A DNA stretch of 64,000 nt from an uncultured bacterium (GTDB lineage Bacteria > Edwardsbacteria > AC1 > EtOH8), in assembly GCA_937863685.1 (NCBI GenBank), contig CALMGM010000002.1, forward strand, positions 1-64,000, written 5' to 3'. Below are positions 8,868 through 42,381 of the stretch, piece by piece; within the stretch, counting starts at the first letter, position 1, and every line of letters starts with the position of its first letter. The notes below the pieces were generated by a model, which saw only the letters and a program-made list of their open reading frames with translations, was not told the origin of the DNA and searched no databases. A program made the translations under genes and the position numbers.

Positions 8868-9503
8868 ATGATATGGGACAGCCGGGCTTTTAATTCCCGC
8901 TTTTATCGCATCGTATGGCACAGCATCAATTTCATGCTCCGGCATTTCCTGGGGCGCCGGGTCACCGGCTGGGAGCATGTCCCGCCCCGGGGAGGCTGCA
9001 TAATCGCCTCCAACCACATCGCCCTGGTGGATCCCCCGTTCCTGGGCACGGCTGCGCCCCGTGAGGTCACTTTTGTGGCCAAGCAGGAGTTGTTCCGGTT
9101 CTTCCTGCTTCGCTGGCTGATAACCTCCCTCAACGCCATGCCGCTCCGCCGTCAGGGAGGGGATGCCGCCGCCATCAAACTCATATTGAAGAAACTGGCG
9201 CAGGGCTGGGCGGTGGTGATGTTTCCCGAGGGCACCCGCAGCCGCACAGAGAATTTCCTGCCGGCCAAATCCGGGGTAGGGCTGATAGCCAGGCGCAGCT
9301 TGGTCCCGGTGGTGCCGGCCTACATAGAAGGCACCAATCGGAAACTGTTCGATCTGTTTAAAGGCAAATATAAACTGCTGACCAGTTTCGGTCCGCCCAT
9401 CACGGCCGCCGAGATGGAGAAATATCCCGACAGCAAGGAGGGGCATCAGCAGATCAGCCAGCTGGTGATGGAACGGATAATTCGCCTGAAAGAGGAAAGA
9501 TGA
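8868..9503 (+). CDS. plsC: 1-acyl-sn-glycerol-3-phosphate acyltransferase (PlsC family)
   Basis: 211 residues. Adds the second acyl chain to lysophosphatidic acid to make phosphatidic acid at the inner membrane. Motif I NHIALVD (H-x4-D) is near residue 47 and motif III FPEGTRSR near residue 120. It starts immediately after the cmk stop and its end overlaps ispH by four bases. Acyl-chain donor specificity cannot be read from the sequence. Confidence 0.93.
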   Translation: MIWDSRAFNSRFYRIVWHSINFMLRHFLGRRVTGWEHVPPRGGCIIASNHIALVDPPFLGTAAPREVTFVAKQELFRFFLLRWLITSLNAMPLRRQGGDAAAIKLILKKLAQGWAVVMFPEGTRSRTENFLPAKSGVGLIARRSLVPVVPAYIEGTNRKLFDLFKGKYKLLTSFGPPITAAEMEKYPDSKEGHQQISQLVMERIIRLKEER

Positions 9504-10369
9504 AGATAGAGGTTGCCAGACGGGCCGGTTTCTGCTTCGGAGTGAAACGGGCGGTCAAGCTGGCCTACGAGACCGCAGCCAGGAGCAAGCAAACGGTCTA
9601 TACCCTGGGCCCCATCATCCATAATCCCCAAGTGGTAAAGGACCTGGAGGGCTGGGGGGTCAAGGTCATAGAAAACCCATCCCGTATCAAAGATGGCGTT
9701 CTGATCATCCGGTCTCACGGCGTGCATCCCCGGGTGCTGCAGCAGTTGAAAGCCCAAAAAATGCTGACCGTCATCGACGCCACCTGCCCCTTCGTCACCA
9801 AAGCGCAGAACGCGGCGGCCTGTTTGCGGGACGAGAAACGCCAGGTGATCATCATCGGCGAGAAGGAACACCCCGAGGTGACAGCACTCAAAGGCTACGC
9901 CGGCCGGGATTCGGTGGTCTTCAACAACAACTCGGTCAAGGTGGGGCCGCGGATAGGGGTGCTGGCCCAGACCACCCTGTCCACCGACGACTTTGTGAAG
10001 GCCTTGATGTACCTGGGATCCAAGACCAACGACATCCATCTGATCAATACCATCTGCCGGGCTACCCAGGTGCGCCAGCAGGATACCATGCAACTGGCCA
10101 AGCGCTCGGATCTGATGATTGTGGTGGGTGGCCGGAACTCGGCCAACACTTCCCGATTGGCGGAATTGTGCCGCAAGGTGGGAAAGCCCACCTACCATGT
10201 AGAGACAGAGGACGAACTGAAAGCCCGGTGGTTTTCCAAAGCCCGACTGGTGGGGGTCACCGCCGGGGCCTCCACTCCGGACGCCCTGGTGCGGAAAGTG
10301 GTCAAGAGGATAAGGGATATCACGGCCAAGAAAAAGAAAAAGGTTTTAAAGGTTCAAAAAGTTCAATAG
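9500..10369 (+). CDS. ispH: 4-hydroxy-3-methylbut-2-enyl diphosphate reductase
   Basis: 289 residues. Last step of the MEP isoprenoid pathway, giving IPP and DMAPP, with a 4Fe-4S cluster. The three cluster cysteines are visible in AGFCFGVKRAV, DATCPFV and NTICRATQVRQ, and the substrate histidines in RSHGVHP and EKEHPEV. The start ATGA overlaps the plsC stop. The last ~15 residues are a lysine-rich tail. With ispG at 13318, two MEP genes lie in the window. Confidence 0.97.
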   Translation: MKIEVARRAGFCFGVKRAVKLAYETAARSKQTVYTLGPIIHNPQVVKDLEGWGVKVIENPSRIKDGVLIIRSHGVHPRVLQQLKAQKMLTVIDATCPFVTKAQNAAACLRDEKRQVIIIGEKEHPEVTALKGYAGRDSVVFNNNSVKVGPRIGVLAQTTLSTDDFVKALMYLGSKTNDIHLINTICRATQVRQQDTMQLAKRSDLMIVVGGRNSANTSRLAELCRKVGKPTYHVETEDELKARWFSKARLVGVTAGASTPDALVRKVVKRIRDITAKKKKKVLKVQKVQ

Positions 10370-10475
10370 GGTTAAGAGGTTTGTAATTTTTCGTGTATTT
10401 AGCGGGCAAAATAAAATGAGATTTTAAGGCTGGCGTTGGTCGGCCTATTCTATACCAAAAGGAGTAACACAAAAC

Positions 10476-12314
10476 ATGGTCAAAACCAAAAAACTTCGTC
10501 CGGAGGACGAGAGGGACGAATTCCTGACAGAGGAGGAATCACGGGATTCCGGCGAGTTCCGGGCACTGCTGGACGAGTACTTCCACCAGAAAACATTCGA
10601 GGAGGGCGAGATCATCACCGGCAAGGTCCTGCGGATCAGCGGGGACTCGGTGATGGTGGACGTGGGTCTCAAGTCCGAGGGGATCGTGCCCCTGATGGAG
10701 ATGTCGGACCCCGAGTCCATCAAGCCGGGCGATGTGCTGGAGCTGTACCTGGAGCAGGTGGAGAACGAGGAGGGACAGATGATCCTCTCCAAGTCCAAGG
10801 CCGATTTCATCAGGGTGTGGGACAAGGCCAAGGAGTACCTGGACAACGAATCGCAGATTGAGGGCAAGGTGGTCAAGCGGATCAAGGGCGGCCTGATAGT
10901 GGACCTGATGGGGGTCGACGCATTTTTGCCGGGCTCCCAGATCGGCCTGCGCCCGCTGGAGACAATGGACAGCCTGCTGGGCCAGAACGTCCCCCTGAAG
11001 ATCGTCAAGATCAACAAGAAGCGCCGCAACATCGTGGTCTCCCGCCGGGCGGTGCTGGATGCCGAGCGCGACAAGCAGCGCACCGCCATCCTGGCCGAGA
11101 TCGACAAGGGCCAGCTGCGCGAGGGCATCGTCAAGAACATCACCGACTTCGGGGTGTTCATCGACCTGGGCGGCCTGGACGGCCTGCTGCACATCACCGA
11201 CATGTCCTGGGGCCGCATCAACCATCCCTCGGAGCTGGTCAAGCTGGGGCAGAGGATCAGCGTCAAGATCCTGGAGTACGATCGCGAGAAATCGCGGGTC
11301 TCTCTGGGCCTCAAACAGCTGACCCCGCATCCCTGGGAGGATATCGAGACCAAGTTCCCGATGGGGGCCACCATCAAGGGCAAGATCGTCTCCATCGTGG
11401 ATTATGGGGCCTTCATCGAACTGGAGAAGGGGGTGGAGGGGCTGATCCACATCTCCGAGATGTCCTGGACCAAGCAGGTCAAGCACCCCTCCAAGCTGGT
11501 GTCCATCGGCCAGGAGGTCGATGCGGTGGTGCTGAAGATAGACAAGAACGAGCAGAAGATTTCCCTGGGCCTGCGCCAGCTGGAGCCGGATCCCTGGCAT
11601 ACCATCGAACAGCGGTATCCCATCGGCTCCAAGGTCAGCGGCAAGGTCCGCAACATAACCAATTTCGGGGTGTTCGTGGAGCTGGACGAGGGCATCGACG
11701 GGCTGATTCACATCTCCGACATCTCCTGGACCAAGCGTATCAAGCATCCCAGCGAGGTGGTCAAGAAGGGGGACAAGATAGACGTGATGGTCACCAACAT
11801 CGACAAGGACAACCGCCGGATATCGCTGGGCATCAAACAGCTGGAGGATGATCCCTGGGCCGACATCGGCAGCAAGTTCTCCATCGGGCAGGACCTCAAG
11901 TGCAAGGTCAACCGTCCGCTGGAGCGGGGTCTGCTGGTGGACATGGACCACGGCTTCGAGGGGTTCGTGCCGGTCTCCGAGCTGGAGGGGATCACCGAGG
12001 ACAAGCTGGCCGAGGCCTTCAAGGGCGGCGAGGAGCTGGAGCTGAAGATCATCGAGATCGACTCCGCCAACCGCCGGATAGCCCTGTCCCAGAAGATCCT
12101 CAAGTCCGGCCAGGCGGCCGAGGAGATGAAACCCTACCTCAAGAAGGAGGCCGCTTCGGGCACCGCCTTCGGCGACGCCTTGAACCAGGCCATCAAAGGC
12201 AAGAAGGAAGAGAAGAAAGACGAAGAAAAGACCGAGGAAAAGGTTGAGGTGGCAGTCCCGGCGGAGGTCATCAATGAGAAGCCGGAAGAAGAAAAACCCG
12301 AGGCCACCGCGTAA
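10476..12314 (+). CDS. rpsA: 30S ribosomal protein S1
   Basis: 612 residues with six S1 RNA-binding repeats at about 38-108, 125-190, 205-280, 295-370, 382-457 and 469-540. Repeats 3-5 are the most alike, each with the pattern (G/N)-x-T/V-D/N-(F/Y)-G-(V/A)-F-(V/I) followed by GL(I/L)HI(S/T)(D/E)MSW. The C-terminal ~60 residues are a Lys/Glu-rich tail. S1 recruits mRNA to the 30S subunit. RBS AAGGAG sits 10-15 bases before the ATG. It follows ispH by 106 bases, the usual order. A full-length S1 together with SD-less genes elsewhere is relevant to initiation mechanism. Confidence 0.97.
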   Translation: MVKTKKLRPEDERDEFLTEEESRDSGEFRALLDEYFHQKTFEEGEIITGKVLRISGDSVMVDVGLKSEGIVPLMEMSDPESIKPGDVLELYLEQVENEEGQMILSKSKADFIRVWDKAKEYLDNESQIEGKVVKRIKGGLIVDLMGVDAFLPGSQIGLRPLETMDSLLGQNVPLKIVKINKKRRNIVVSRRAVLDAERDKQRTAILAEIDKGQLREGIVKNITDFGVFIDLGGLDGLLHITDMSWGRINHPSELVKLGQRISVKILEYDREKSRVSLGLKQLTPHPWEDIETKFPMGATIKGKIVSIVDYGAFIELEKGVEGLIHISEMSWTKQVKHPSKLVSIGQEVDAVVLKIDKNEQKISLGLRQLEPDPWHTIEQRYPIGSKVSGKVRNITNFGVFVELDEGIDGLIHISDISWTKRIKHPSEVVKKGDKIDVMVTNIDKDNRRISLGIKQLEDDPWADIGSKFSIGQDLKCKVNRPLERGLLVDMDHGFEGFVPVSELEGITEDKLAEAFKGGEELELKIIEIDSANRRIALSQKILKSGQAAEEMKPYLKKEAASGTAFGDALNQAIKGKKEEKKDEEKTEEKVEVAVPAEVINEKPEEEKPEATA

Positions 12315-12662
12315 ACCGACCTAACCCCCAAACCCCCTTCCCCGGTGGGGAAGGGGGTTTTTCTTATTCCTGTCTTTCGTGTCTGCATGCCCGGCAGAAT
12401 ACACGGCGGGCCGTGCCCGCCGACCTAACCCCCAGCCCCTTCCCCGTATGGGAAGGGGTATTATTTTTGCCCGGTGTCATTGCCCGCATACTGTAGGGAC
12501 ACGGCGTGCCGTGTCCCTACCTGCATGCCCGGCAGGTTGACCGCCCCTGGCGGGTCTGACCCCTCCCAACCCTCCCCCGAGGGGAGAGGGAGATTAAATT
12601 CCCCTCTTGCATTTTCCCTAACTATTTGCGATAATCTCATAAAATATAGTGAAAAGGATCTT
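12315..12662. repeat. Gene-free, palindrome-rich gap between rpsA and the lipoprotein gene
   Basis: Besides the rpsA terminator, this 348-base stretch holds several palindromes: CCCCTTCCC/GGGAAGGGG (about 12436-12459), a 13-base inverted repeat GTAGGGACACGGC at 12493-12505 and 12508-12520, and C-rich/G-rich arms near 12570-12590. The words CGACCTAACCCCCA and GCATGCCCGGCAG each occur twice. This looks like accumulated small dispersed repeats, not coding sequence. The right end supplies the promoter of the next gene: a weak -35 and an extended -10 TGC-GATAAT at 12627-12635. Confidence 0.6.
12330..12362 (+). terminator. Strong terminator after rpsA
   Basis: Fourteen-base perfect stem AAACCCCCTTCCCC (12330-12343) with its complement at 12347-12360, loop GGT, and a T-run at 12358-12362. 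Confidence 0.9.
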
Positions 12663-13232
12663 ATGAACAGATATATAATGTTTATTGTCCTGTCGCTGGC
12701 GGTTTTTATATTAGCAAATTGTGCGACTGTGAAAACAAAAGAAAGTGCGACCGTTCTCTCAAATGAATTGACGATCGTTGATACGCTTGCTGGTCAAAAT
12801 ATTCGCATGCCGGAATACTTATCAAAGATTTCAGAGGTGCGCCATAAATGTGCCTATAATTATTCGGTATGTTATCCCCTGAATGAAATATATATAAAAA
12901 CCGATAGTCTATATAATAATGCAGGGCGTTCTCCTGCCAAACCGATAGGTAAAGGCGTTAAATTCGGTCTAATTTCGGGAGCGATTATTGGCACGATTTT
13001 TGTATTGGACGCTTTTTCCCATTCTTCTTCCGGTGGCGAAGACTGGCGGGGATTATCGATTCTCGCCGCCGGGGAGATGATCGCAATAACTACTGTAGCT
13101 GGCTTGGCAATCGGCACTGCAATATATACGACAAACATTATCAAAGGCGGAAAGAAATTATCAAAAGATGAAATTAGGGTATTAAACGATTGGATAAAAT
13201 ATTATAATCAGATTGTTATCAATTATCGGTAA
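12663..13232 (+). CDS. Putative lipoprotein, AT-rich, unknown function
   Basis: 189 residues from the ATG at 12663, chosen for the signal sequence MNRYIMFIVLSLAVFILANC and the AAAAGG upstream. The frame is open further left but only through repeats. The Cys at residue 20 fits a lipobox loosely (LAN-C; Asn at -1 is unusual). Two glycine-rich hydrophobic stretches lie around residues 100-115 and 137-160, so it may be membrane-embedded. Codon use is clearly more AT-rich than in rpsA or ispG, suggesting recent acquisition. No family recognised. Confidence 0.7.
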   Translation: MNRYIMFIVLSLAVFILANCATVKTKESATVLSNELTIVDTLAGQNIRMPEYLSKISEVRHKCAYNYSVCYPLNEIYIKTDSLYNNAGRSPAKPIGKGVKFGLISGAIIGTIFVLDAFSHSSSGGEDWRGLSILAAGEMIAITTVAGLAIGTAIYTTNIIKGGKKLSKDEIRVLNDWIKYYNQIVINYR

Positions 13233-13242
13233 AAATAAATAT

Positions 13243-13276
13243 AATGTCCTTGCAACAATATGCAGGGACATTTTTT
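13243..13276 (+). terminator. Terminator after the AT-rich lipoprotein gene
   Basis: Stem AATGTCCTTGCA (13243-13254) with TGCAGGGACATT (13261-13272, one G-U pair), loop ACAATA, followed by T-run. Confidence 0.85.
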
Positions 13277-13280
13277 ATTG

Positions 13281-13309
13281 TTGATTAACACCTCTAAAAG
13301 AGTTATAAT
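13281..13309 (+). promoter_or_regulatory. Promoter for ispG, predicting a leaderless transcript
   Basis: TTGATT (13281-13286), a 17-base spacer and TATAAT (13304-13309). The -10 element ends eight bases before the ATG at 13318, so the predicted transcription start falls on or 1-2 bases before the start codon. There is no room for a ribosome binding site. Confidence 0.75.
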
Positions 13310-13317
13310 CCATCGTT

Positions 13318-14394
13318 ATGAAAGCAACAGGCATCGCGGTTACCTATCCCCGCCGCAGGTCCCAGCCGGTCAAGGTGGGGAATATCGTCATCGGAGGCAG
13401 CGCCCCGGTGTCCATCCAGTCCATGACCAACACCGATCCCTGCAACGTCAGGGCCACATTGGCCCAGATAAAAAAACTGGAGAAGGCCGGCTGCCAGATC
13501 GTCCGCCTGGCGGTGCCGGATAAAAAGTCCGCCGCCGCCCTGGCCCGTATCCGGCAGGGGACAAAGATGCCGCTGGTGGCCGATATCCATTTCGACCACC
13601 GCCTGGCCCTGGCGGCCCTGGATGCCGGGGTGGACAAACTACGGATCAACCCCGGGAACATCGGCTCAGCGGCAAAGGTCCGGGAAGTTGTAAAGGCGGC
13701 GAAGGTTAGAAAGGTTCCCATCCGCATCGGGGTCAACGCCGGATCGCTGGAGAAGGATATCCTGGCCCGGGACGGCCATCCCACCGCCCGCGGCATGGTG
13801 GACAGCGCCCTGCGGCATGTTCGGATACTGGAGGACCTGGGGTTTGATGCTATCGTGATCTCGCTCAAAGGTTCGGACGTGCCCATGACCATCGAGGCCT
13901 ACAGAAAAATATCCAGAATGGTTCCCTATGCCTTGCATCTGGGAATCACCGAGGCCGGGACTCCGGCGGCCGGGGCTATCCGCTCGGCGGTGGGCATCGG
14001 GACGCTTCTGGCCGAGGGCATTGGAGACACCATCCGGGTTTCGTTATCGGGTGATCCCGTCAAAGAGATCCCGGTGGCCCGGGAGATAGTTCAGACTTTG
14101 GGGCTGAGAATCTTCGGTCCGGTGGTCCACGCCTGCCCCACCTGCGGCCGCTGCAAGATAGACGTGGCAAGGATCGCCGCTCGGGTGGAGAAGAGAATGG
14201 CCGGGATAAAGAAGCCGCTGAAGATAGCGGTGATGGGCTGCGTGGTCAACGGGCCGGGCGAGGCCCGGGAGGCCGACCTGGGGATCGCCGGCGGCGACGG
14301 GATGGGACTGCTATTCCAAAAGGGAAAGATCACGGCCAAGGTCAAAGAAAAAGACATGGTCAATCAGTTGGTGGCGTTAGCCAAAAAAATGTAA
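13318..14394 (+). CDS. ispG: 4-hydroxy-3-methylbut-2-enyl diphosphate synthase (flavodoxin/ferredoxin)
   Basis: 358 residues. Penultimate MEP-pathway step, converting MEcPP to HMBPP with a 4Fe-4S cluster. The cluster ligands are visible in CPTCGRCKID (two Cys) and VMGCVVNGPGEA (Cys and Glu). The TIM-barrel N-terminal part starts with SQPVKVGNIVIGG and SIQSMTNTDPC. It has the short bacterial form without the insert domain. Translation start at 13318 is supported by family alignment; no Shine-Dalgarno is present. Confidence 0.97.
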   Translation: MKATGIAVTYPRRRSQPVKVGNIVIGGSAPVSIQSMTNTDPCNVRATLAQIKKLEKAGCQIVRLAVPDKKSAAALARIRQGTKMPLVADIHFDHRLALAALDAGVDKLRINPGNIGSAAKVREVVKAAKVRKVPIRIGVNAGSLEKDILARDGHPTARGMVDSALRHVRILEDLGFDAIVISLKGSDVPMTIEAYRKISRMVPYALHLGITEAGTPAAGAIRSAVGIGTLLAEGIGDTIRVSLSGDPVKEIPVAREIVQTLGLRIFGPVVHACPTCGRCKIDVARIAARVEKRMAGIKKPLKIAVMGCVVNGPGEAREADLGIAGGDGMGLLFQKGKITAKVKEKDMVNQLVALAKKM

Positions 14395-32109: not shown

Positions 32110-32421
32110 ATGAGAATAGGAAAACATCCCATCCTTGATTTCAAAAAAGGGACCAAAATAGAATTTTTTTTTGAAGGGCAGCCGGTCGAGGGGTTCCTGG
32201 GAGAACCCATTGCGGCTGCTTTGCATGCCGCCGGGATCAAGGTGCTGCGCCATAGCGTCAAACTGGACAGGCCCCGGGGCTTTTTTTGTGCGGTGGGCAA
32301 GTGCTCCTCCTGCCTGATGGAGGTGGACGGCGTGCCGAATGTCTTCTCCTGCATCACCCCCATCCGTCCGGGCATGCAGGTCAGGCGCCAGAAGGGCCGG
32401 GGCCGGATCGCCGTAAACTGA
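32110..32421 (+). CDS. 2Fe-2S subunit of an FAD-dependent amino-acid dehydrogenase (Fer2_4 type)
   Basis: 103 residues. The 2Fe-2S motif C-x4-C-x2-C...C appears as FFCAVGKCSSCLMEV and FSCITP. This matches the N-terminal module of sarcosine oxidase alpha and the small subunit of HcnABC/opine or proline dehydrogenases. It starts a locus with the FAD subunit 32 bases downstream. It probably wires substrate electrons from FAD to other iron-sulfur centres. Confidence 0.88.
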   Translation: MRIGKHPILDFKKGTKIEFFFEGQPVEGFLGEPIAAALHAAGIKVLRHSVKLDRPRGFFCAVGKCSSCLMEVDGVPNVFSCITPIRPGMQVRRQKGRGRIAVN

Positions 32422-32452
32422 ACCAATGTTACTACACTGCTTTTAAGAATTC

Positions 32453-33535
32453 ATGACGAATACCAACTTTCTTATCATCGGCGGGGGCCCGGCCGGCTTG
32501 ATGGCGGCGCTGTCGTCCTCGGAGTTCGGCCTGGATCCGCTGATCATAGACGAGAACCAGACAATCGGGGGCCAGCTGATCAAGCAGACCCACATGTTCT
32601 TCGGCTCCAAGGCCGAACGGGCCGGGACCCGGGGCTTTGAGATCGGGATGGAGCTGGAGCAGGAGATCGGCAAGCGCAACATCAAGATAGAACGCCAGGC
32701 CTCGGCGGTGGGATATTATCCCGACGGGACGTTGGCGGTGCTGCAGAACGAAAAAGTGACGCCGCTCAAGCCCAAGGCCGTTCTGGTGGCCACCGGAGCC
32801 TCGGAGAATTTCGTCTCCTTTCCCGGCAGCGATCTTCCGGGTGTCTACGGGGCCGGGGCGGTGCAGACCCTGATGAACGTCTACGGCATCAAGCCGGGCC
32901 GCAGCGTGCTGATGGTGGGCTCCGGCAACATCGGTCTGATCGTTTCCTACCAGCTGATGCAGGCCGGGGTTCAGGTCAAGGCCATCATTGAGGGCCTGCC
33001 AAAGATCGGCGGTTATCTGGTCCATGCCTCCAAGATAGCCCGGGCGGGGGTGCCTATTTTAACCCGCCACACCATCCTTAAAGCGCTGGGAGGGGATCAG
33101 GTCAGCGGGGCGGTGATATCAAAAATTGACGATAAATGGCAGACCATAGAGGGCACCCAGCAGACGCTGGAGGTGGACACCATCTGCCTGGCGGTGGGGC
33201 TTTCGCCATTGACCGAAATTTTATGGCAGGCCGGCTGTCAGATGAACTACATTCCGGAACTGGGGGGCCAGGTGGCCTGGCACGATGACCTGATGATGAC
33301 CACTATGCCCGGCATCTTCACCGCCGGCGATGTCACCGGGATAGAGGAGGCCTCCACCGCCATGCTGGAGGGCGAGCTGGCCGGGTTGGGGGCGGTCAAA
33401 TTTCTCAAGGGCGATTCAAAAGCTCTCCAAAGCCGGATAAACGACACCGCCTGCCGGCTGGCGGCCTTGCGGGCCGGGCCGTTCGGGCAGAAGGCCAGGG
33501 AGGGCAAGTGCAAGCTGGCGGAATGCCGGAGATAG
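32453..33535 (+). CDS. FAD/NAD(P)-binding subunit of amino-acid dehydrogenase (HcnB-like)
   Basis: 360 residues. FAD-binding LIIGGGPAGLMAAL at the N-terminus, GGQLIKQTHMFF, a second dinucleotide fold with VLMVGSGNIGLIVSY (about 160), and the FAD-closing GIFTAGDVTGIEEAS near residue 285. It corresponds to the middle module of sarcosine oxidase alpha and to HcnB. Together with the 2Fe-2S, 4Fe-4S, BFD and DAO-type subunits nearby it would form a heteromeric proline- or sarcosine-type dehydrogenase; the substrate is inferred only at that level. Confidence 0.88.
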   Translation: MTNTNFLIIGGGPAGLMAALSSSEFGLDPLIIDENQTIGGQLIKQTHMFFGSKAERAGTRGFEIGMELEQEIGKRNIKIERQASAVGYYPDGTLAVLQNEKVTPLKPKAVLVATGASENFVSFPGSDLPGVYGAGAVQTLMNVYGIKPGRSVLMVGSGNIGLIVSYQLMQAGVQVKAIIEGLPKIGGYLVHASKIARAGVPILTRHTILKALGGDQVSGAVISKIDDKWQTIEGTQQTLEVDTICLAVGLSPLTEILWQAGCQMNYIPELGGQVAWHDDLMMTTMPGIFTAGDVTGIEEASTAMLEGELAGLGAVKFLKGDSKALQSRINDTACRLAALRAGPFGQKAREGKCKLAECRR

Positions 33536-33569
33536 TTCAAAGTATAAAGTTGAAAGTTTAAAGTCTTAA

Positions 33570-34070
33570 ATGCTCAGTGATAAATTAACATCCTGCGGGA
33601 TTGCCGACCATTCGGATATCCCTGCCTCCTGGCCGTCGGAAGAACGGCTGAAAAAAGGACCGGTGGTCGTTGTGGAATGTTTTCAGGAGATCCCCTGCAA
33701 TCCCTGCGAGACCAGCTGTCCCCGCCAGGCCATCGTGGTCGGTGAGAACATCAACGACCTGCCCAAGGTGGACCATGCCAAATGCAACGGCTGCACCATC
33801 TGTGTCTCCCGCTGCCCGGGCCTGGCCATCTTTGTGATCGACGTCAATTATTCGGAAACGGAAAGTCTGGTGACCATGCCTTACGAGTTCCTGCCTCTGC
33901 CGGAGAAGGGCGATACGGTCTCAGCTTTGGATCGGGCAGGGAAGGAATGTTGCCGGGCAAAAGTGGTCAAAGTGGTAAACACCAAGGCCCAGGGCAAGAC
34001 CCCGCTGGTGACCCTGACAATACCCAGGGGAATGGAGAAATCGATCCGGTTTTTCAAATTGATCCCCTGA
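33570..34070 (+). CDS. 4Fe-4S ferredoxin-type subunit
   Basis: 166 residues. A Cys cluster CNPCETSCP and a full motif CNGCTICVSRCP suggest one to two 4Fe-4S centres. The C-terminal ~70 residues form a small beta domain of unknown role. It is the likely electron-exit subunit of the dehydrogenase complex. The gap before the next gene holds a family B repeat. Confidence 0.82.
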   Translation: MLSDKLTSCGIADHSDIPASWPSEERLKKGPVVVVECFQEIPCNPCETSCPRQAIVVGENINDLPKVDHAKCNGCTICVSRCPGLAIFVIDVNYSETESLVTMPYEFLPLPEKGDTVSALDRAGKECCRAKVVKVVNTKAQGKTPLVTLTIPRGMEKSIRFFKLIP

Positions 34071-34189: not shown

Positions 34190-35329
34190 ATGATCAAGAT
34201 CAAATATGCAGTCCTGCTGATATTGTTCCTGCTTCCGGCCCTGACCCCGGCCCTGGAGCCGCCGACCGATATCAAGCTGACGGATGCTCCCAATGATGAC
34301 GGCTCCATTGTCATCATGGAGTGGCAATCATCTCCCTCGGAAAACGAGCCGGGGTTCATGGGCTACAATATTGAGCGGTCAATGATGCCAAACGATTCCT
34401 TCCAGATGATCGCCTGGGTACCCAAGGGTACGACCGAGCACGAGGATAATTCCGTCGAGATCATCGGCCGGAATTATTATTATAAGGTGGTGGCCGTCAA
34501 CGAGAGCGGGGACAGCGCCGTCAGCGCCTTGGCCGGACCGATATCCACCACCCAGAGCTGGTTCAACACCGGCAAGCTGAACACATTGTTCGGCACCTTT
34601 CTGTTCATCGCCATAACCCTGTTATACATCTATTGGGCCCGCAAGGGCAAGCTGTTCATCCGGCGCATCTCAGGATTGGACGCGGTGGAGGAGGCCATCG
34701 GCCGGGCCACCGAGATGGGACGGCCGATACTTTACTGCAATGGCATCGGCCTGATAGATTCAATATCCACCGTGGCTTCCCTGAACATCCTGGGACAGGT
34801 GGCCAAGAAGACCGCCGAGTACGATACCCCGCTGACCGTACCCACCGCCGACCCGGTGGTGCATGCGGTGGCCCGGGAGATGGTCAAGGAGGGTTACAAA
34901 AGCGTGGGTCGTCCCGATCTGTTCAAGGAGGATTCGGTATACTTCATCACCCAGGACCAGATGGGATACGCCGCGGCCCTGGCCGGGATAATGGTCCGGG
35001 AAAAGCCGGCCACCAATTTTTTCATGGGTTATTATGCGGCCGAGTCCCTGGTGCTGGCCGAATCGGGCGCCGCCACCGGGGCCATCCAGATAGCCGGGAC
35101 CGACCAGATATCGCAATTGCCGTTCTTCATCACTGCCTGCGATTACACCCTGATCGGCGAGGAGCTGTACGCCGCCTCGGCCTACCTGTCCAAGGAGCCG
35201 CTGCTGGTGGGAAGCCTGAAGGGGCAGGATGCCTGCAAGCTGATCATCATCCTGTTCGTCCTGCTGGGCACCCTGGCGGCCCTGCTCTTCCGCTCCGATC
35301 TCATCTACAACCTTTTCAGCATTCACTAA
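34190..35329 (+). CDS. Tetrad protein A, copy 1: FN3 domain, membrane anchor and soluble domain
   Basis: 379 residues. Signal or anchor segment (5-21), a fibronectin type III-like domain (about 22-118, starting PPTDIKLTDAPND), a membrane helix (about 130-148), a basic stretch RKGKLFIRRISG, then a conserved alpha/beta domain (about 160-350: AIGRATEMGRPILY, NILGQVAKKTAEYDTP, GAIQIAGTD, FFITACDYTLIGEELYAASAYLS) and a last helix (353-372). The FN3 part probably faces outward and the conserved domain inward. It may match an uncharacterised DUF (DUF6754-like, from memory). Closely similar to 37538-38764. First of four genes repeated in tandem; function unknown. Confidence 0.85.
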   Translation: MIKIKYAVLLILFLLPALTPALEPPTDIKLTDAPNDDGSIVIMEWQSSPSENEPGFMGYNIERSMMPNDSFQMIAWVPKGTTEHEDNSVEIIGRNYYYKVVAVNESGDSAVSALAGPISTTQSWFNTGKLNTLFGTFLFIAITLLYIYWARKGKLFIRRISGLDAVEEAIGRATEMGRPILYCNGIGLIDSISTVASLNILGQVAKKTAEYDTPLTVPTADPVVHAVAREMVKEGYKSVGRPDLFKEDSVYFITQDQMGYAAALAGIMVREKPATNFFMGYYAAESLVLAESGAATGAIQIAGTDQISQLPFFITACDYTLIGEELYAASAYLSKEPLLVGSLKGQDACKLIIILFVLLGTLAALLFRSDLIYNLFSIH

Positions 35330-35341
35330 AGGTAAAGGAAT

Positions 35342-35962
35342 ATGAAAAAAAATATACCCATGGCCATAGTTTTCGTGCTGGGAGTGGCTTTCATCATCCA
35401 GTTCTTCATCCCCAGCCGGCCATCGCAGGTGGCCTTCAATACCATGATCGAATGGGATCTGATCATCTATGTTTTCGCTTCGGTGATCGCGGTGGACAGC
35501 CTGGTGCGGCACCACATCCTGAAGATCTCCCGCAAGAGCAAGGGCTGGGGATACAGCCTGGTCTATCTGGGCGCGGCGGTGTTCATGATACTGGCGGCGG
35601 TGTTCAGCGGCACCCGGGAGGGCAGTTTCTACATGAAGGTGTTCAATTATGCCCTGGCCCCCATGCAGGCCACCATGTTCGCCATTTTGGCCTTCTACAT
35701 GGCCTCGGCCAGCTACCGGGCATTTCGGGCCAAATCCACCGAAGCCACCATGCTGTTGATATCGGCCTTTATCGTGATGCTGGGGCTGATCCCGCAGGGG
35801 GCCGCCATCTGGAGCGGCCTGCCCAAACTTTCGGAGTGGCTGATGCTGGTGCCCAATATGGCCGCCAAGCGGGGCATCACCTTCGGCATCGGGCTGGGCA
35901 TCACCGCCACTTCCCTGAAGATCATCCTGGGCATCGAACGCAACTGGATGGGAGGACACTAA
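35342..35962 (+). CDS. Tetrad protein B, copy 1: polytopic membrane protein
   Basis: 206 residues with about six hydrophobic helices. Segments shared with its duplicate at 38774 are AFIIQFFIPS (helix 1), QATMFAILAFYMASASYRAFRAKS (split across helix 4 and a basic loop), and NMAAKRGITFG with TATSLKIILGIER at the end. The invariant, basic C-terminal loop and helix suggest a partner-binding face. No known family recognised. Twelve bases after A; C follows after one base. Confidence 0.85.
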   Translation: MKKNIPMAIVFVLGVAFIIQFFIPSRPSQVAFNTMIEWDLIIYVFASVIAVDSLVRHHILKISRKSKGWGYSLVYLGAAVFMILAAVFSGTREGSFYMKVFNYALAPMQATMFAILAFYMASASYRAFRAKSTEATMLLISAFIVMLGLIPQGAAIWSGLPKLSEWLMLVPNMAAKRGITFGIGLGITATSLKIILGIERNWMGGH

Positions 35963-35963
35963 C

Positions 35964-36815
35964 ATGTTGAAATTTTTGGCCAAGTTCGGCAAGCTGGACC
36001 GCCGGATCGTGTTCGCCCTTCTGCTGGCGGCCATCCTGATCCCGCTGTTGTTCAGCGTAAAATCACATTTTTATGTGGATGCCGCCACCAGGAGCATCTA
36101 TGATTATGTCGACCATATAGAACCGAACGGACGGCCCCTGATGATCTCTTTCGATTACGACCCCCAGGTGGCCGCCGAGCTGGACCCCATGGCCCGGGCG
36201 GTGCTGCGGCATTGTTTTGCCCGGGGGGTGAAAGTGGTCGGCTTGTCCCTGGCCCCGCAGGGCGATGCCATCGGGGAGGGGATCATAACCAAGGTGGCCA
36301 AGGAATACGGCAAAAAGAACGGGATCGATTACTGTTATTTTGGCTATCGCCCCGGCATGACCATCATCATGCTGCAGATGGGCGTCAACGTAAAAAAAGC
36401 CCTGCCGCTGGATTATTACCAGACCCCCTACGACAGCCTTCCCATGATGCATAACATACACAATTATGACGATATAGCCCTGGTCCTTTCTTTGGCCGGC
36501 TCGACCTATCCCTACAGCTGGATCATCTTTGCCGGCACCAAGTTCAAGGTCAAAATTGCCGCCGGACAGACGGCGGTGATGGCCCCGGACAATTATCCCT
36601 TTCTGCAGACCGGCCAGCTGGTGGGCCAGCTGGGCGGGATGAAGGGCGGGGCCGAATATGAACAACTGATTGTCGAGGCGGGCTATTACCATAAATCGGA
36701 TATTGCCAGCAAGGCCATGAGCGCCATCGCCTATTCGCATCTGTTGATCATCCTGCTGATCATTCTGGGGAACATAGGATATTTCATCTCCAAAAAGATC
36801 GAACAGAAAAAATGA
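35964..36815 (+). CDS. Tetrad protein C, copy 1: doubly anchored extracytoplasmic domain
   Basis: 283 residues. N-terminal helix (about 13-32), a ~210-residue alpha/beta domain, and a C-terminal helix (YSHLLIILLIILGNIGYF, about 254-274). Motifs shared with copy 2 are RHCFA-G-(V/I)-(K/R)-VV, DSLPMM, YPFLQ-GQLVG, GMKG-x2-EYE and LVLS-AGS. Helix polarity suggests the domain lies outside the cytoplasm. The conserved Cys, His, Tyr and Glu would suit a binding or catalytic pocket, but I recognise no enzyme family. Confidence 0.85.
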   Translation: MLKFLAKFGKLDRRIVFALLLAAILIPLLFSVKSHFYVDAATRSIYDYVDHIEPNGRPLMISFDYDPQVAAELDPMARAVLRHCFARGVKVVGLSLAPQGDAIGEGIITKVAKEYGKKNGIDYCYFGYRPGMTIIMLQMGVNVKKALPLDYYQTPYDSLPMMHNIHNYDDIALVLSLAGSTYPYSWIIFAGTKFKVKIAAGQTAVMAPDNYPFLQTGQLVGQLGGMKGGAEYEQLIVEAGYYHKSDIASKAMSAIAYSHLLIILLIILGNIGYFISKKIEQKK

Positions 36816-36854
36816 CGCAGTTATTTAAGAACTTTCAAAAGTAAGGATATAATA

Positions 36855-37487
36855 ATGAGCACAAATATCTGGGTATGGATAGCCGCCTTGTTGAGCCTGG
36901 CCATTTTCTCCTATCTCTATAAGGACAACCCGGCCTTCCGATTTGCCGAGCATCTGTTTACCGGGCTATCGGTGGGATATTTCATAGTACTCTATTGGAA
37001 TAACTACACCCTGCCGTACATTGTCACTCCGCTGGTCAATCATCGGTGGATAACCCTTATTCCCATGGCCCTGGGGATGATGTACTTTTTCAGGTTCATT
37101 CCCAAACTTAACCATCTGATCCTGATCCCCATCGCCATCAGCCTGGGATTCTGGAACGGCATGTCCATTCCGCTGACCTTTGAGGCCGACGTGCTCAAAC
37201 AGATCCAGGGCACCATGGTGAACACCTCCATGCTCACCAACATCTGGGATCCCCAGAAGGGGCTGATGGTGGGCCTGCTGGTGATGGTCGGGGTGATCAG
37301 CACCATCACCTATTTCTATTTCTCCCGGGAGCACAAGGGACCGATCAAGGTCACCGCCAATGTCGGCATCTGGTTCGTGATGATCGGCTTCGGGGCCACC
37401 TTCGGCTACACCGTCATGGCCCGGGTCTCCCTGCTGATCGCCCGGATGCAGTTTTTGTTCACCGATTGGATACATCTGATAAAATAA
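36855..37487 (+). CDS. Tetrad protein D, copy 1: polytopic membrane protein
   Basis: 210 residues with about six helices. Shared with copy 2: WVWIAALL...IFSYLYKDNPAFRFAEHLF at the N-terminus, YFYFSREHKG after helix 5, and GIWFVMIGFGA(T/S)FG...ARVSLLI-R-QFL-TDWIH-IK at the C-terminus. The charged, invariant ends suggest assembly with B or C. No known family recognised. AAGGA precedes the ATG. Confidence 0.85.
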   Translation: MSTNIWVWIAALLSLAIFSYLYKDNPAFRFAEHLFTGLSVGYFIVLYWNNYTLPYIVTPLVNHRWITLIPMALGMMYFFRFIPKLNHLILIPIAISLGFWNGMSIPLTFEADVLKQIQGTMVNTSMLTNIWDPQKGLMVGLLVMVGVISTITYFYFSREHKGPIKVTANVGIWFVMIGFGATFGYTVMARVSLLIARMQFLFTDWIHLIK

Positions 37488-37537
37488 GACAGGCCAGGGG
37501 CGGTTTTATAAGGTTATATGGGATATAAAGGGCATAA

Positions 37538-38764
37538 TTGATTATAATCAAAACCATAAAACGGAGAAGATTGATGAGGCTTAAAATCACCGGGCTGCTG
37601 TTGATGTTATGCTGGGCAACTGCAGCTATGGCTGCTTCACCAGTGACGGCCGCACCGCCAGAGGCTGTTTCGGTTGCGGTCATCGCCCCGCCGTCAGATA
37701 TCAAGGCAGTCGACACTCCCAACGATGCCGGGCATGCCATTACCGTAAGCTGGCAGGCGTCGCCGGATGAGGCCCAAAAATTGATCGAGGGCTACGAGGT
37801 CCTGCGGTCCGAAATTTCGGATGGGGAATTTGTCAAAGCGGGGTATGTCCCCTACGGGTTCACCAGCTTTGACGACCAGGATGTCCCGGCCAACGGGAAG
37901 GATTATTTCTACCGGGTCAGGGCGGTGGGCCGGGAGAGTCAGGCGCTGAGCGCCGTTTCAAATCCGGCCAGGGCCTCGGAGCAGTGGTTCAACACCCTGC
38001 GCATCAATGCCCTGATCAGCTGTATTTTGTTCACCATAATCGTGATGATCTTCATCGCCCGGGCCAGGAGCGGGCAGAGCCTTTTCATTCGTCGTATAGC
38101 CGGGCTGGCGGCGGTGGAGGAGGCGGTGGGCCGGGCCACCGAAATGGGTCGTCCCATTCTGTACGTGCCGGGCATTTCTACCATCGCGGATGTGGCCACC
38201 ATCGCCGCCCTGAACATCCTGGGGCAGGTGGCCAAAAAGACCGCCGAATACGATACTCCGCTGCTGGTGCCTAATAAGGATCCAGTGGTCTTTACCGTGG
38301 CCCAGGAGATCGTCAAGGAGGCCTACAACGAGATCGGCCGTCCCGATGCCTATAACCACGATTCGGTTTTTTATCTTACCGACAGCCAGATGGGATTCGC
38401 CTCGGGGGTGGACGGCATCATGGCCCGGGAAAAACCGGCCACCAACTTCTTTTTGGGAATGTTTTATGCCGAATCCCTGATCCTGGCGGAAACCGGGGCC
38501 GAGACCGGGGCCATTCAGATCGCCGGCACCGATGCCATCCACCAGCTGCCGTTCTTCATCACCGCCTGCGATTACACTCTGATCGGCGAGGAACTGTATG
38601 CCGCCTCGGCCTACCTTTCCCGCGAGCCGATGCTGCTGGGCACCCTCAAGGGCCAGGATTGGAGCAAGGCCATCATCGTGCTGTTGCTGATAATCGGCCT
38701 GGCCGCGTCGCTGATAAACCCCGGGATCAGGGTCATCATCCTGCAAATGCTAAGGGTAGGTTAA
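37538..38764 (+). CDS. Tetrad protein A, copy 2: FN3 domain, membrane anchor and soluble domain
   Basis: 408 residues by the longest frame; the ATG at 37574 gives MRLKITGLLLMLCWATAAMA, a clear signal peptide, and follows GGAGAAG, so it is the likelier start (396 residues). FN3-like domain (from PPSDIKAVDTPND), membrane helix, IRRIAGLAAVEEAVGRATEMGRPILY and the same conserved inner domain as copy 1, ending with a helix. By eye the inner domain is very similar between copies while the FN3 part and first 40 residues diverge, so the outer parts have evolved faster. Confidence 0.83.
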   Translation: MIIIKTIKRRRLMRLKITGLLLMLCWATAAMAASPVTAAPPEAVSVAVIAPPSDIKAVDTPNDAGHAITVSWQASPDEAQKLIEGYEVLRSEISDGEFVKAGYVPYGFTSFDDQDVPANGKDYFYRVRAVGRESQALSAVSNPARASEQWFNTLRINALISCILFTIIVMIFIARARSGQSLFIRRIAGLAAVEEAVGRATEMGRPILYVPGISTIADVATIAALNILGQVAKKTAEYDTPLLVPNKDPVVFTVAQEIVKEAYNEIGRPDAYNHDSVFYLTDSQMGFASGVDGIMAREKPATNFFLGMFYAESLILAETGAETGAIQIAGTDAIHQLPFFITACDYTLIGEELYAASAYLSREPMLLGTLKGQDWSKAIIVLLLIIGLAASLINPGIRVIILQMLRVG

Positions 38765-38773
38765 GGAGAGAAA

Positions 38774-39412
38774 ATGAAAAGACAGATACCTTTGATAATA
38801 GTTCTGACGCTGGGGATATTCTTTTTCATCCAGTTCTTCGTCCCCAGCCAGATATCAACCAATATCTATCAGACCACCCTGCAATGGACCCTGGTTATCA
38901 GCGCCTTTGCCATCGTGCTGGCCATAGGCAGTTTGGTCAACCATCATATGCTGAAGATCAAAAGACGCAAGCCTCATTGGTGGAACAGCATCGTGACCCT
39001 GGTGGCTCTGGTGGTGATGGCCCTGCTGGGAATCTTCGGGAGGGTAAAAGGCCTGGAGCCGCTGGGCGAGTTATATCGCAAGTTGTTTCATTATGTGCAA
39101 TCACCGATGGACCAGGCCATGTTCGCCATCCTGGCCTTCTATATGGCCTCGGCCGCCTACCGGGCCTTCCGGGCCCGTTCCCAGGAGGCGGCCCTGCTGC
39201 TGATCTCCGGCTTCATCGTGATGCTGGGGGTGATACCCTTCGGATCCATGATCTGGTCCAAGATCCCCGACATCGCCGAATGGATCATGATGGTTCCCAA
39301 CATGGCCGCCAAGCGCGGCATCCTGTTCGGGGTGGGCCTGGGAATGACGGCCACCTCGCTGAAGATCATCCTGGGCATTGAGCGCAGCTGGCTGGGAGGA
39401 GGTGGCAAATGA
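38774..39412 (+). CDS. Tetrad protein B, copy 2: polytopic membrane protein
   Basis: 212 residues, same six-helix layout as 35342-35962. Helix 1 ends FFIQFFVPS; the middle has MFAILAFYMASAAYRAFRARS; the end has NMAAKRGILFG and TATSLKIILGIER. The loop between helices 2 and 3 (KIKRRKPHW) is more basic than in copy 1. RBS AGGAG seven bases upstream. Overlaps C by four bases, tighter than in copy 1. Confidence 0.85.
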   Translation: MKRQIPLIIVLTLGIFFFIQFFVPSQISTNIYQTTLQWTLVISAFAIVLAIGSLVNHHMLKIKRRKPHWWNSIVTLVALVVMALLGIFGRVKGLEPLGELYRKLFHYVQSPMDQAMFAILAFYMASAAYRAFRARSQEAALLLISGFIVMLGVIPFGSMIWSKIPDIAEWIMMVPNMAAKRGILFGVGLGMTATSLKIILGIERSWLGGGGK

Positions 39413-40257
39413 AGATATTGGAGAATCTGACCAAGATAAACCGCCGGTATATCTTTCTGCTGGTGGCCCTGGCGGTGATCATTCCTCTGATAGTCCCCAT
39501 GAAACTGCCTACCATCCCGGGGAAATACACCGTCAAGCTGTACGGCTTTATCGACAAGATACCGCCCCAAAGCCAGCCGATATTGATAGCGGCCGATTAC
39601 AGCCCCTCCATGATGCCCGAGCTGCAGCCGATGCTGGAGGCGGTCATCCGGCACTGCTTCGCCAAGGGAATTCGGGTAGTGATCATGACCCTGGATCCCA
39701 ACGGTGCGGCCCTTTCGGAAGAAGCCCTTAAAAAGATAGCTCCGGAATACGGGGCCGTCAACGGGCGGGATTACGCCTTTTTGGGTTTTAAACCCGGCTC
39801 TTCCATCGTGATGATGTCCATCGGAGAGAATTTCCGCCAGGCATTTCCCACCGATTTCTACGGCACCCCGCTGGACAGCCTGCCGATGATGAACGGCATC
39901 CGAAACTACGCCGATGTGCCGCTGGTGCTCTCCATAGCCGGCAGCGCCATCACTCAGGGCTGGATCGCTTATGCCCATACCCGCTACCATGCCAATGTGG
40001 GGGCCGGATGCACCGCGGTCAGCACCGCCGACTACTATCCCTTTCTGCAGGCTGGGCAGCTGGTGGGGCTGTTGAACGGCATGAAGGGGGCCAGCGAGTA
40101 TGAATATTTAAACAAGAAGAACGGCTATTCCAGCGCCGCTCCGGTGGCCACCAAGGGGATGAACGCAGTTTCCATCGTTCACCTTTTGTTGATGCTGTTC
40201 ATCATTTTGGGCAATATCGGCTATCTGGTGACCCGGCACAACCAGAGCAAGAAGTAA
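39409..40257 (+). CDS. Tetrad protein C, copy 2: doubly anchored extracytoplasmic domain
   Basis: 282 residues, the duplicate of 35964-36815 with the same two anchors and motifs (IRHCFAKGIRVV, LDSLPMM, YPFLQAGQLVG, GMKGASEYE, IILGNIGY). Residues lying between motifs differ widely, so the motifs probably mark a functional pocket. ATGA overlap with B indicates translational coupling. No known family recognised. Confidence 0.85.
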   Translation: MKILENLTKINRRYIFLLVALAVIIPLIVPMKLPTIPGKYTVKLYGFIDKIPPQSQPILIAADYSPSMMPELQPMLEAVIRHCFAKGIRVVIMTLDPNGAALSEEALKKIAPEYGAVNGRDYAFLGFKPGSSIVMMSIGENFRQAFPTDFYGTPLDSLPMMNGIRNYADVPLVLSIAGSAITQGWIAYAHTRYHANVGAGCTAVSTADYYPFLQAGQLVGLLNGMKGASEYEYLNKKNGYSSAAPVATKGMNAVSIVHLLLMLFIILGNIGYLVTRHNQSKK

Positions 40258-40267
40258 GGAGAGCGAA

Positions 40268-40900
40268 ATGATATTTTCAACCAATCCCTGGGTGTGGATC
40301 GCGGCCATACTGACGTTGGGCATCTTCTCCTTTTTATATAAGGAGAATCCCTTCTACCGTTTTGCCGAGCACCTTTTCGTCGGCATTTCGGCTGGGTACG
40401 GCGTGGCCATCTACTGGAACAACGCCATAGTGCCCAATCTGTACGTCCCGGTTTTTCAGCAGCACAATTACTGGTTCATAATTCCCGGCCTTATAGGATT
40501 GATGTTCTTTTTCCGCTTTAGCTCCAAAGCCGGCTGGCTGATCCTGATACCCCTGGCAGTGCTATTGGGGACGGGCAGCGGGATGGGGCTGGCGCCCACC
40601 TTCCAGACCGATATTCTGAAACAAATGCAGAGCGCCATCGGTGATGCCACAAATCTGCAGCTGGGAGGCTGGGGTTTGGTTTGGGGATTGGTCACTTTTG
40701 TGGGGGTGCTAACCACCCTCAGCTACTTCTTCTTCTCCCGGGAGCAGAAGGGGGCTTTAAAAATTTCGGCCAATATCGGCATCTGGTTCATCATGATAGG
40801 CTTCGGGGCTTCTTTCGGCAACACCGTTATGGGGCGTATCGCTCTGCTTATCGGCCGGGTGCAGTTCCTGCTGACCGATTGGATACATGTGATTAAATAA
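40268..40900 (+). CDS. Tetrad protein D, copy 2: polytopic membrane protein
   Basis: 210 residues, exactly the length of copy 1. N-terminus NPWVWIAAILTLGIFSFLYKENP, RFAEHLFVGISAGYG, and C-terminus ANIGIWFIMIGFGASFG...LLIGRVQFLLTDWIHVIK. Equal length and collinear motifs show it arose by duplication of a complete four-gene block. AAGGAG lies eight bases before the ATG. It ends the block; a hairpin repeat follows. Confidence 0.85.
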   Translation: MIFSTNPWVWIAAILTLGIFSFLYKENPFYRFAEHLFVGISAGYGVAIYWNNAIVPNLYVPVFQQHNYWFIIPGLIGLMFFFRFSSKAGWLILIPLAVLLGTGSGMGLAPTFQTDILKQMQSAIGDATNLQLGGWGLVWGLVTFVGVLTTLSYFFFSREQKGALKISANIGIWFIMIGFGASFGNTVMGRIALLIGRVQFLLTDWIHVIK

Positions 40901-41244: not shown

Positions 41245-42381
41245 ATGGCCAATAATTCCGACATCATCATCATCGGGGGCGGCATCATTGGGGCCGCCAC
41301 CGGGTATTATCTTTCCCGGGCCGGATGCCGGGTCAGGCTGATCGAGAAGGGCTACCTGTGCTCCGGGTCCACCGGGCGTTGCATTGGGGGCATCCGCCAG
41401 CAGTTCACCTCCGAGGGGTCGATCAAGCTGATGCTGGAGAGCGTTGGGCATTTCAGCAATATGAAAGAGGAGCTGGGGATCGATGTCCACTGGCATCCCG
41501 GCGGATACCTGTTCCTGGCCCACAGCCAGGAGAAGAAGGAAGCATTCCTGTCCAATATCTCCATTCAACAGAGCTTTGGTCTGAAGGATGTCCGCTGGGT
41601 GGATGCCTATGAAGCCAAGCAGGTGGCTCCCGGCCTGGATGCCCAGGGATTGCTGGGCGGCTCCTACTGTCCGTCGGACGGCCAGGCCTATCCCTTTGCA
41701 GTGGTCAGCGGCTACGTCGAAAGGATCAAATCCTACGGCGGCAGCATAAACACCTTTACCGAGGTGGCCGCCATACTTCAGGGCGGCGGCCGGGTCCGGG
41801 GGGTGCGGACCGCCGCGGGTGCCGAATACCAGGCCGATGTGGTCGTCAATGCCGCCGGGCCCTGGGCCAGGGATATCGGCCAAATGGCCGGCATCGAGGT
41901 GCCGGTGGAGCCGGAGAGGCATGAGGCCCTGATAACCGAGGGGGTGGATTACCTGAACATTCCCATGCTGGTGGATTACCGGGCCGACGGGGGATATTTC
42001 CAGCAGTTCCGCCACAACGGGCAGTTCATCGGCTGTTATTCGCCGGTTCCCAACGTTCCCGGCCATTCCACCGATTCCAGCTACCAATTCCTGAATCAGA
42101 TGCCCCGGCGGATGCTTAAACTGGTGCCGGCCCTGGCCCCGGTGAAGGTGATCCGCCAGTGGGCCGGCAGCTACGAGAACACCCCGGACGGCAACCCCAT
42201 ACTGGACCGGACCCCGCTGGAGGGATTTTTCGTGGCCGCCGGGATGTGCGGTCACGGTTTCATGCTGGGGCCGGCCATGGGAAGGCTGGCCGCCGACCTG
42301 ATATTGAATCACGGCAAAGTGCCTCCGGTGGCCGAATTCGCGCTGGAGCGGGATTATTCGCGTCAGGAGGCGATGAAATAA
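41245..42381 (+). CDS. DAO-type FAD-dependent amino-acid dehydrogenase catalytic subunit
   Basis: 378 residues. FAD-binding IIIGGGIIGAATGYYLSRAG at the N-terminus, STGRCIGGIRQQ, and the C-terminal WAGSYENTPDGNPILDRTPLEGFF...GHGFMLGPAMG typical of sarcosine oxidase beta, proline dehydrogenase beta and HcnC. It oxidises a secondary or D-amino acid; exact substrate unknown. It starts four bases after the BFD gene. Confidence 0.9.
   Translation: MANNSDIIIIGGGIIGAATGYYLSRAGCRVRLIEKGYLCSGSTGRCIGGIRQQFTSEGSIKLMLESVGHFSNMKEELGIDVHWHPGGYLFLAHSQEKKEAFLSNISIQQSFGLKDVRWVDAYEAKQVAPGLDAQGLLGGSYCPSDGQAYPFAVVSGYVERIKSYGGSINTFTEVAAILQGGGRVRGVRTAAGAEYQADVVVNAAGPWARDIGQMAGIEVPVEPERHEALITEGVDYLNIPMLVDYRADGGYFQQFRHNGQFIGCYSPVPNVPGHSTDSSYQFLNQMPRRMLKLVPALAPVKVIRQWAGSYENTPDGNPILDRTPLEGFFVAAGMCGHGFMLGPAMGRLAADLILNHGKVPPVAEFALERDYSRQEAMK

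Follow-up and report, generated by a model that had tools for sequence, protein, structure and literature searches.

The window analyzed here, the first 64,000 nucleotides of contig CALMGM010000002.1 from an uncultured Edwardsbacteria bacterium, carries between positions 34190 and 40900 eight consecutive open reading frames (ORFs) on the + strand, which form two collinear tetrads of genes that we call A, B, C and D. The initial annotation had described this arrangement from the letters alone, and all eight ORFs lie where it placed them, in the same order and with the lengths it gave for B (206/212 amino acids, aa), C (283/282 aa) and D (210/210 aa), while the motifs that it quoted are found in each of the two copies. 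In the list below, AlphaFold2 models are given with their predicted local distance difference test (pLDDT) and predicted template modeling (pTM) scores.

34190..35329, + strand: A1, 379 aa; signal peptide, FN3 domain, transmembrane helix, alpha/beta domain of the DUF6754 family predicted to be cytosolic, transmembrane helix (Pfam PF20539, 4e-113; positive-inside charge pattern)
35342..35962, + strand: B1, 206 aa; polytopic membrane protein, about six predicted transmembrane helices, no family (ORF; conserved YRAFRAR and GIERxxLGG motifs)
35964..36815, + strand: C1, 283 aa; transmembrane helix, alpha/beta domain predicted to lie outside, transmembrane helix, no family (fold as modeled for its paralogue C2)
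36855..37487, + strand: D1, 210 aa; polytopic membrane protein, about six predicted transmembrane helices, no family (ORF, alignment)
37571..38764, + strand: A2, 397 aa; signal peptide, FN3 domain, transmembrane helix, DUF6754 domain, transmembrane helix, as predicted (PF20539, 5.6e-122; AlphaFold2 pLDDT 91.4, pTM 0.77; FN3 matches)
38774..39412, + strand: B2, 212 aa; polytopic membrane protein (59% identity with B1)
39409..40257, + strand: C2, 282 aa; transmembrane helix, alpha/beta domain predicted to lie outside, transmembrane helix (AlphaFold2 pLDDT 94.2, pTM 0.90; none of the 50 PDB matches listed has a TM-score above 0.5)
40268..40900, + strand: D2, 210 aa; polytopic membrane protein (56% identity with D1)

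A2 is counted from the ATG at 37571 (397 aa); its ORF opens at an upstream TTG at 37538, from which the protein would be 408 aa long. At the sequence level, the two tetrads are homologous far beyond chance, with phmmer E-values between the copies of 4.6e-130 for A, 1e-74 for B, 2e-86 for C and 3e-73 for D. Identity between the copies is 36% in the N-terminal FN3 region of A and 46% in C, versus 66% in the conserved domain of A, 59% in B and 56% in D. The FN3 region and C are thus indeed the fast-changing parts, which is compatible with, although no proof of, distinct ligands for the two versions.

Both A proteins are clear members of the Pfam family DUF6754 over the whole domain, scoring 377 and 406 bits against a cut-off of 27, and this family has no function assigned. 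Neither Pfam nor NCBIfam has a family that matches B, C or D, so that the tetrad, initially called unrecognized in composition, keeps that description for three of its members but not for A, which Pfam already names. Near-hits in Pfam to Otopetrin (D) and to CoV_NSP4_N and DUF2157 (B) fell far under the cut-offs and were taken as chance. A search of non-subscription literature found no paper naming DUF6754, PF20539 or PF13941, the last being the family matched by one of the partner genes described below. The eight proteins have no match among the known anti-phage defense systems in PADLOC and the tetrads have no plasmid or phage match; a plasmid, phage or defense origin was rejected.

The AlphaFold2 models of C and A, based on 79 and 97 aligned sequences respectively, are confident and back the outline in which both proteins consist of anchored alpha/beta domains. 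Their elements come in one and the same order, TM-alpha-(beta-alpha)6-TM (TM, transmembrane helix), which in A is preceded by FN3. Since profile-profile comparison detects no homology between A and C, even with about 100 sequences each, a common origin of the two is only suggested by this shared order of predicted elements. The same comparison detects no homology between B and D, and neither pair was retained as sequence homologues. When the PDB was searched, the matches listed for C were generic and Rossmann-type, and the list for A, whose DUF6754 domain was not searched alone, was filled by FN3 domains. Family and structure searches thus returned no characterized family or solved structure for B, C, D or the conserved domain of A.

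The N terminus of A is predicted to carry an FN3 domain, which is sub-threshold in Pfam (fn3, E 0.33) and is recognized both by the match of the A profile to titin FN3 at 5e-8 and by that of the predicted structure to FN3 domains at ~1e-6. The length of A varies through this N terminus, reaching ~940 aa, and its cytosolic domain has 25 invariant alignment columns. From the K+R content beside the helices, we infer that the domain of A is cytosolic and that of C outside. With this topology, the conserved B loops that contain YRAFRAR and GIERxxLGG would face the cytosol. In C, the polar residues His258 and Asn269 are conserved within the membrane helices.

Conservation and history of the ABCD block

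Profiles made from the alignments of A, B, C and D were applied to 79 named loci and to another 20 taken from other genomes. Among the 100 loci scored, 56 have the pattern ABCD, 12 ABCDABCD and seven ABCDABCDABCD, so tandem arrays are not peculiar to the window. The remaining patterns are mostly cut at contig ends; in three loci, a very long A is present but was missed by the profile, and one locus has two tetrads in opposite orientation. The A-B-C-D order is strict in 24 loci spanning at least 16 families. The hosts are Edwardsbacteria, WOR-3/Stahlbacteria, Zixibacteria, Latescibacterota, Poribacteria, Fermentibacteria, Hyd24-12, Coatesbacteria, Eisenbacteria, CSSED10-310, TA06 and other uncultured phyla, and nearly all those named are metagenome-assembled genomes, which makes absences soft. 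The genes are tightly packed, with median intergenic gaps of 10 bases for A-B, -1 for B-C and -4 for C-D, overlaps being frequent, and the four genes are correlated in their distance matrices (r 0.72-0.86). The four genes therefore do occur together, in an order that is invariant over many phyla. The proposal of a multisubunit unit kept whole is borne out by order, overlaps and correlated distances, but it needs to be widened, since N and M, two of the partner genes introduced below, are tied to ABCD.

The window belongs to contig C2 of a 2.72-Mb genome that is 98% complete and holds four A genes, namely the tandem pair of the window, one on contig C5 and one on contig C13, every one of them accompanied by a separate B, C and D. 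In a tree of 107 concatenated tetrads, there are two large classes, of 43 and 52 tetrads, as well as basal lineages, with some deep supports being low. Both window tetrads fall in the second class (class 2), in a fully supported clade with three tetrads from another genus of the same family, and we therefore conclude from their sequences that the two copies arose by duplication within this family. The tetrads of contigs C5 and C13 belong to the first class. As inspected by eye on the tree, 15 of the 21 multi-tetrad loci pair one tetrad of each class; keeping two versions is therefore a recurring habit.

Partner genes S, M and N

Clustering of the genes around ABCD yielded one recurring partner set, three genes that we call S, M and N and that lie outside the window. 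In many lineages, they are immediate same-strand neighbors of ABCD, and their order varies: S-M-N-ABCD is found at the C5 locus of the host and at many others, S-ABCD-M-N in locus L050, ABCD-S-M-N in L176 and, in a genome of 0.9 Mb, M-N-S-ABCD (L165). Locus L105 encodes an M-N fusion (920 aa), and in other genomes second N matches lie within ~980-1030-aa ORFs that M also matches. The initial annotation was hence right about the coordinates of ABCD-ABCD, but a four-gene scope was too narrow, for further genes of the system sit elsewhere in the genome, on contig C5.

S is a protein of ~110-140 aa and, like N, matches no assigned family. M (~605 aa) is a GlmL/MutL-like predicted ATPase of the ASKHA (actin-fold) type, as judged from its alignment with the full MutL/GlmL model of Pfam (PF13941, 1e-125; 420 bits against a cut-off of 27) and from its ASKHA-type motifs DCGSTTTKA, GVDIGGATTD and GSGGVLSHAP. 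This resemblance raises the idea that the genes are an accessory system of coenzyme-B12 mutases. However, M scores below all three NCBIfam cut-offs for GlmL (226.6/475, 205/600 and 159.5/204 bits; the models include NF040745 and TIGR01319), is ~150 aa longer than GlmL, has an extra C-terminal region, and has membrane proteins as partners. Moreover, a search of 61 genomes for the glutamate mutase E subunit (Met_asp_mut_E) gave no match that passed the cut-off, which led us to reject the glutamate mutase link. Because of this absence and of the sub-cut-off scores, M has probably left the mutase role, and we regard an accessory function for B12 mutases as extremely improbable.

N (~375 aa) shows weak barrel-sandwich matches to RnfC_N, NqrA_N and biotinyl-lipoyl models, as well as a weak SPT5/NusG KOW-like match at its C terminus. 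Its score against RnfC_N, 21 bits, is under the cut-off of 25.6, whereas the fused protein of L105 reaches 27.7 bits against NQRA_N, over a cut-off of 25.

The distribution of these genes links them further. The genomes sampled are centered on the host of the window and are not independent. A is present in 22 of 61 genomes and N in exactly the same 22, while M occurs in 21 of these and in two others with ORFs of ordinary GlmL length. When one genome per family was taken from this first set, outside the family of the window, 12 had both A and N and 39 neither (p ~6e-12). In 241 genomes, A is found in 69; N is found in 66, every one of which also has A, and 172 have neither (Fisher p ~3e-56). 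M is above cut-off in 65 of the 69 genomes with A and in nine of the 172 without it; seven of these nine matches are ORFs of 455-503 aa, the ordinary GlmL length, and one genome lacking A (G096, 85% complete) has S and the long M. C is likewise present in 69 of the 241, 67 of them shared with A. The system is absent from 14 well-studied control genomes.

The two genomes with C but no A match (G102 and G240; loci L171 and L172) have a divergent B-C-D with a B of ~500 aa, preceded by genes of 243, 485 and ~95 aa, which may be A, M and S in a very divergent form. There, profile comparison confirmed only B (94.5%) and gave a weak result for S (15%); the proposed A and M were not confirmed. In several lineages, a small membrane protein of ~150 aa with no family match lies just upstream of S (L118:1909-2361, L068:3338-3781 and L048:6846-7289), and it may be a further member of the system. 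In L173 (G069, C33), C is extended at its N terminus by a long stretch of repeated DWLR-type motifs and adjoins D and a 736-aa M-like protein in which the first ASKHA motif is altered (AEIGSLITR). The L165 cluster (G206, C4:1-16000), from a genome of ~0.9 Mb that is 98% complete, is compact, with overlapping genes, and adjoins CdsA-like and diacylglycerol-kinase-like genes.

Other genes lie beside tetrads in particular lineages. Upstream of the double tetrad of the window (32110-34070) are genes for a 2Fe-2S protein, a flavin adenine dinucleotide (FAD) protein of the Pyr_redox type and a 4Fe-4S protein, and downstream (41245-42381) a DAO-type FAD oxidoreductase; together, these resemble the components of a single amino-acid/amine dehydrogenase complex. 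The double tetrad has the same surroundings in related genomes from this family (L053, L055 and L089). A third tetrad of the host (L035, G000 C13:4000-20000, at 8752-13466) lies immediately downstream of genes for V-type ATPase subunits (G, I, E and C by Pfam) and of a roadblock-like gene, a layout also present in G002 (L167) and seen only in the genus of the window. In WOR-3 and related genomes (L096, L113, L114, L115 and L125), the genes downstream of D in the same orientation are a DUF4388 gene and two unassigned ones, one of them roadblock-like by eye, and then genes resembling TolQ, TolR (two) and TonB.

Some of these features could be read as those of an ion-pumping or redox-coupled complex like Rnf or Na+-NQR, in which N would correspond to RnfC/NqrA and B and D to the six-helix NqrD/E-RnfA/E pair. 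The weak matches of N, the two subunits of about six helices, the conserved polar residues in the membrane helices of C, the iron-sulfur and FAD proteins on either side of the window's double tetrad and the V-ATPase genes next to the C13 tetrad are all in line with it. However, B and D match no Rnf or Nqr family in Pfam or NCBIfam and their alignments contain no conserved cysteine pair. N differs by its KOW-like C terminus and, in the sampled genomes, occurs only alongside ABCD. No flavin, quinone or iron-sulfur part recurs with the system, the full set of oxidoreductase neighbors being confined to the family of the window, and M is an ASKHA-type protein rather than a redox protein. A complex of this type thus seems distinctly unlikely.

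A predicted envelope machine and its alternatives

Because of the operon linkage and the pattern of presence and absence, we consider ABCD, M and N to be one system whose members very probably act together. Our preferred reading, which we find rather more convincing than not, is that ABCD forms the membrane core of a multiprotein envelope machine not described so far, consisting of S-M-N and one to several ABCD. The physical complex, its coupling to ATP and its direction of action are what we infer from these data. In such a machine, cytosolic M, the barrel-sandwich/KOW-like putative adaptor N and S would dock on two cytosolic sites, the DUF6754 domain of A and the conserved loops of B. An ATP-driven conformational change would be received by that domain and these loops and passed by the multi-helix subunits B and D through the membrane to the alpha/beta domain of C and the FN3 domain of A, which may move or assemble an envelope substrate (protein, lipid or polymer) outside. 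That ATP drives such coupling across the membrane is probable. The ABCD modules would be exchangeable versions sharing one M-N, in keeping with the single M and single N that the host genome has for its four ABCD, and the window would hold two class-2 modules.

This architecture brings known systems to mind. As in the PilM-PilN-PilO-PilP and GspL-GspM platforms, an actin-fold cytosolic protein would be combined with membrane subunits that have outside domains, but S-M-N-ABCD differs by its two multi-helix subunits and by alpha/beta domains on both faces of the membrane. No pilin, secretin or PilB/GspE-type ATPase is among the recurring neighbors of ABCD, whole genomes not having been searched for them. 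PilM and FtsA are membrane-bound relatives of the actin/Hsp70-type fold to which M belongs, and an envelope sensing or scaffolding complex can accordingly be conceived, in which FN3 and C serve as sensors of the wall or surface while M polymerizes or switches like FtsA/PilM and organizes the envelope with no transport. The variable length of A would suit such a complex, and retention in a 0.9-Mb genome makes a core housekeeping role plausible. However, the strong conservation of B, D and the cytosolic domain of A exceeds the apparent needs of a scaffold, and the sequence of M is nearer to GlmL than to FtsA/PilM, so that we judge this explanation rather unlikely.

Energy-coupling factor (ECF) transporters offer another parallel, namely one energizing unit with several exchangeable membrane modules; in those of group II, the modules share one ATPase. 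Following this parallel, the system would be a solute transporter energized by M, with C capturing a small molecule outside, B and D providing the path, A acting as a cytosolic gate and the two window copies differing in specificity. The faster evolution of the extracytoplasmic domain of C relative to the A domain fits. Yet the fold of C lies far from those of solved solute-binding proteins (substrate-binding chains have a TM-score of ~0.18 among the listed matches), the system has a four-gene module and no ECF-type subunits, and no ASKHA ATPase is known to power a transporter. Neighbor clustering found no ATP-binding cassette (ABC) ATPase recurring adjacent to ABCD; the one recurring ABC cluster is at least 3 kb away and in only five loci. 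We thus consider a solute transporter unlikely.

Several points weigh against the envelope machine that we favor. The tetrads of the window are not beside S-M-N, their neighbors being oxidoreductase genes, and ABCD is often apart from S-M-N in other genomes. N is not detected in three of the 69 genomes with A (G067, G086 and G226, the last of which yields no more than a 97-aa fragment), and M is missing from G016 despite the presence of A and N there. The genes beside ABCD are housekeeping genes that differ by lineage, and none points to a substrate. The S-M-N-ABCD complex is itself a prediction from genes, and a role in export or assembly, rather than another envelope job, is a guess from the architecture that we regard as doubtful.

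The presence of A in 69 of the 241 genomes sampled around the host and the retention of the system in a 0.9-Mb genome nevertheless make it look like a core envelope function. It has escaped notice because most of its hosts are uncultured and a single one of its membrane genes bears so much as a DUF number. Linking DUF6754, B, C, D, M and N turns separate families without a function into one predicted complex with a likely energy source. S-M-N-(ABCD)n may well represent a class of ATP-driven membrane machine that is new and is common in uncultured bacterial phyla. In it, an actin-fold ATPase and an adaptor would drive exchangeable four-subunit modules, with alpha/beta domains on opposite sides of the membrane, and would fulfill a core task in the envelope, be it export, assembly or lipid/polymer transfer, for which model organisms have other solutions.

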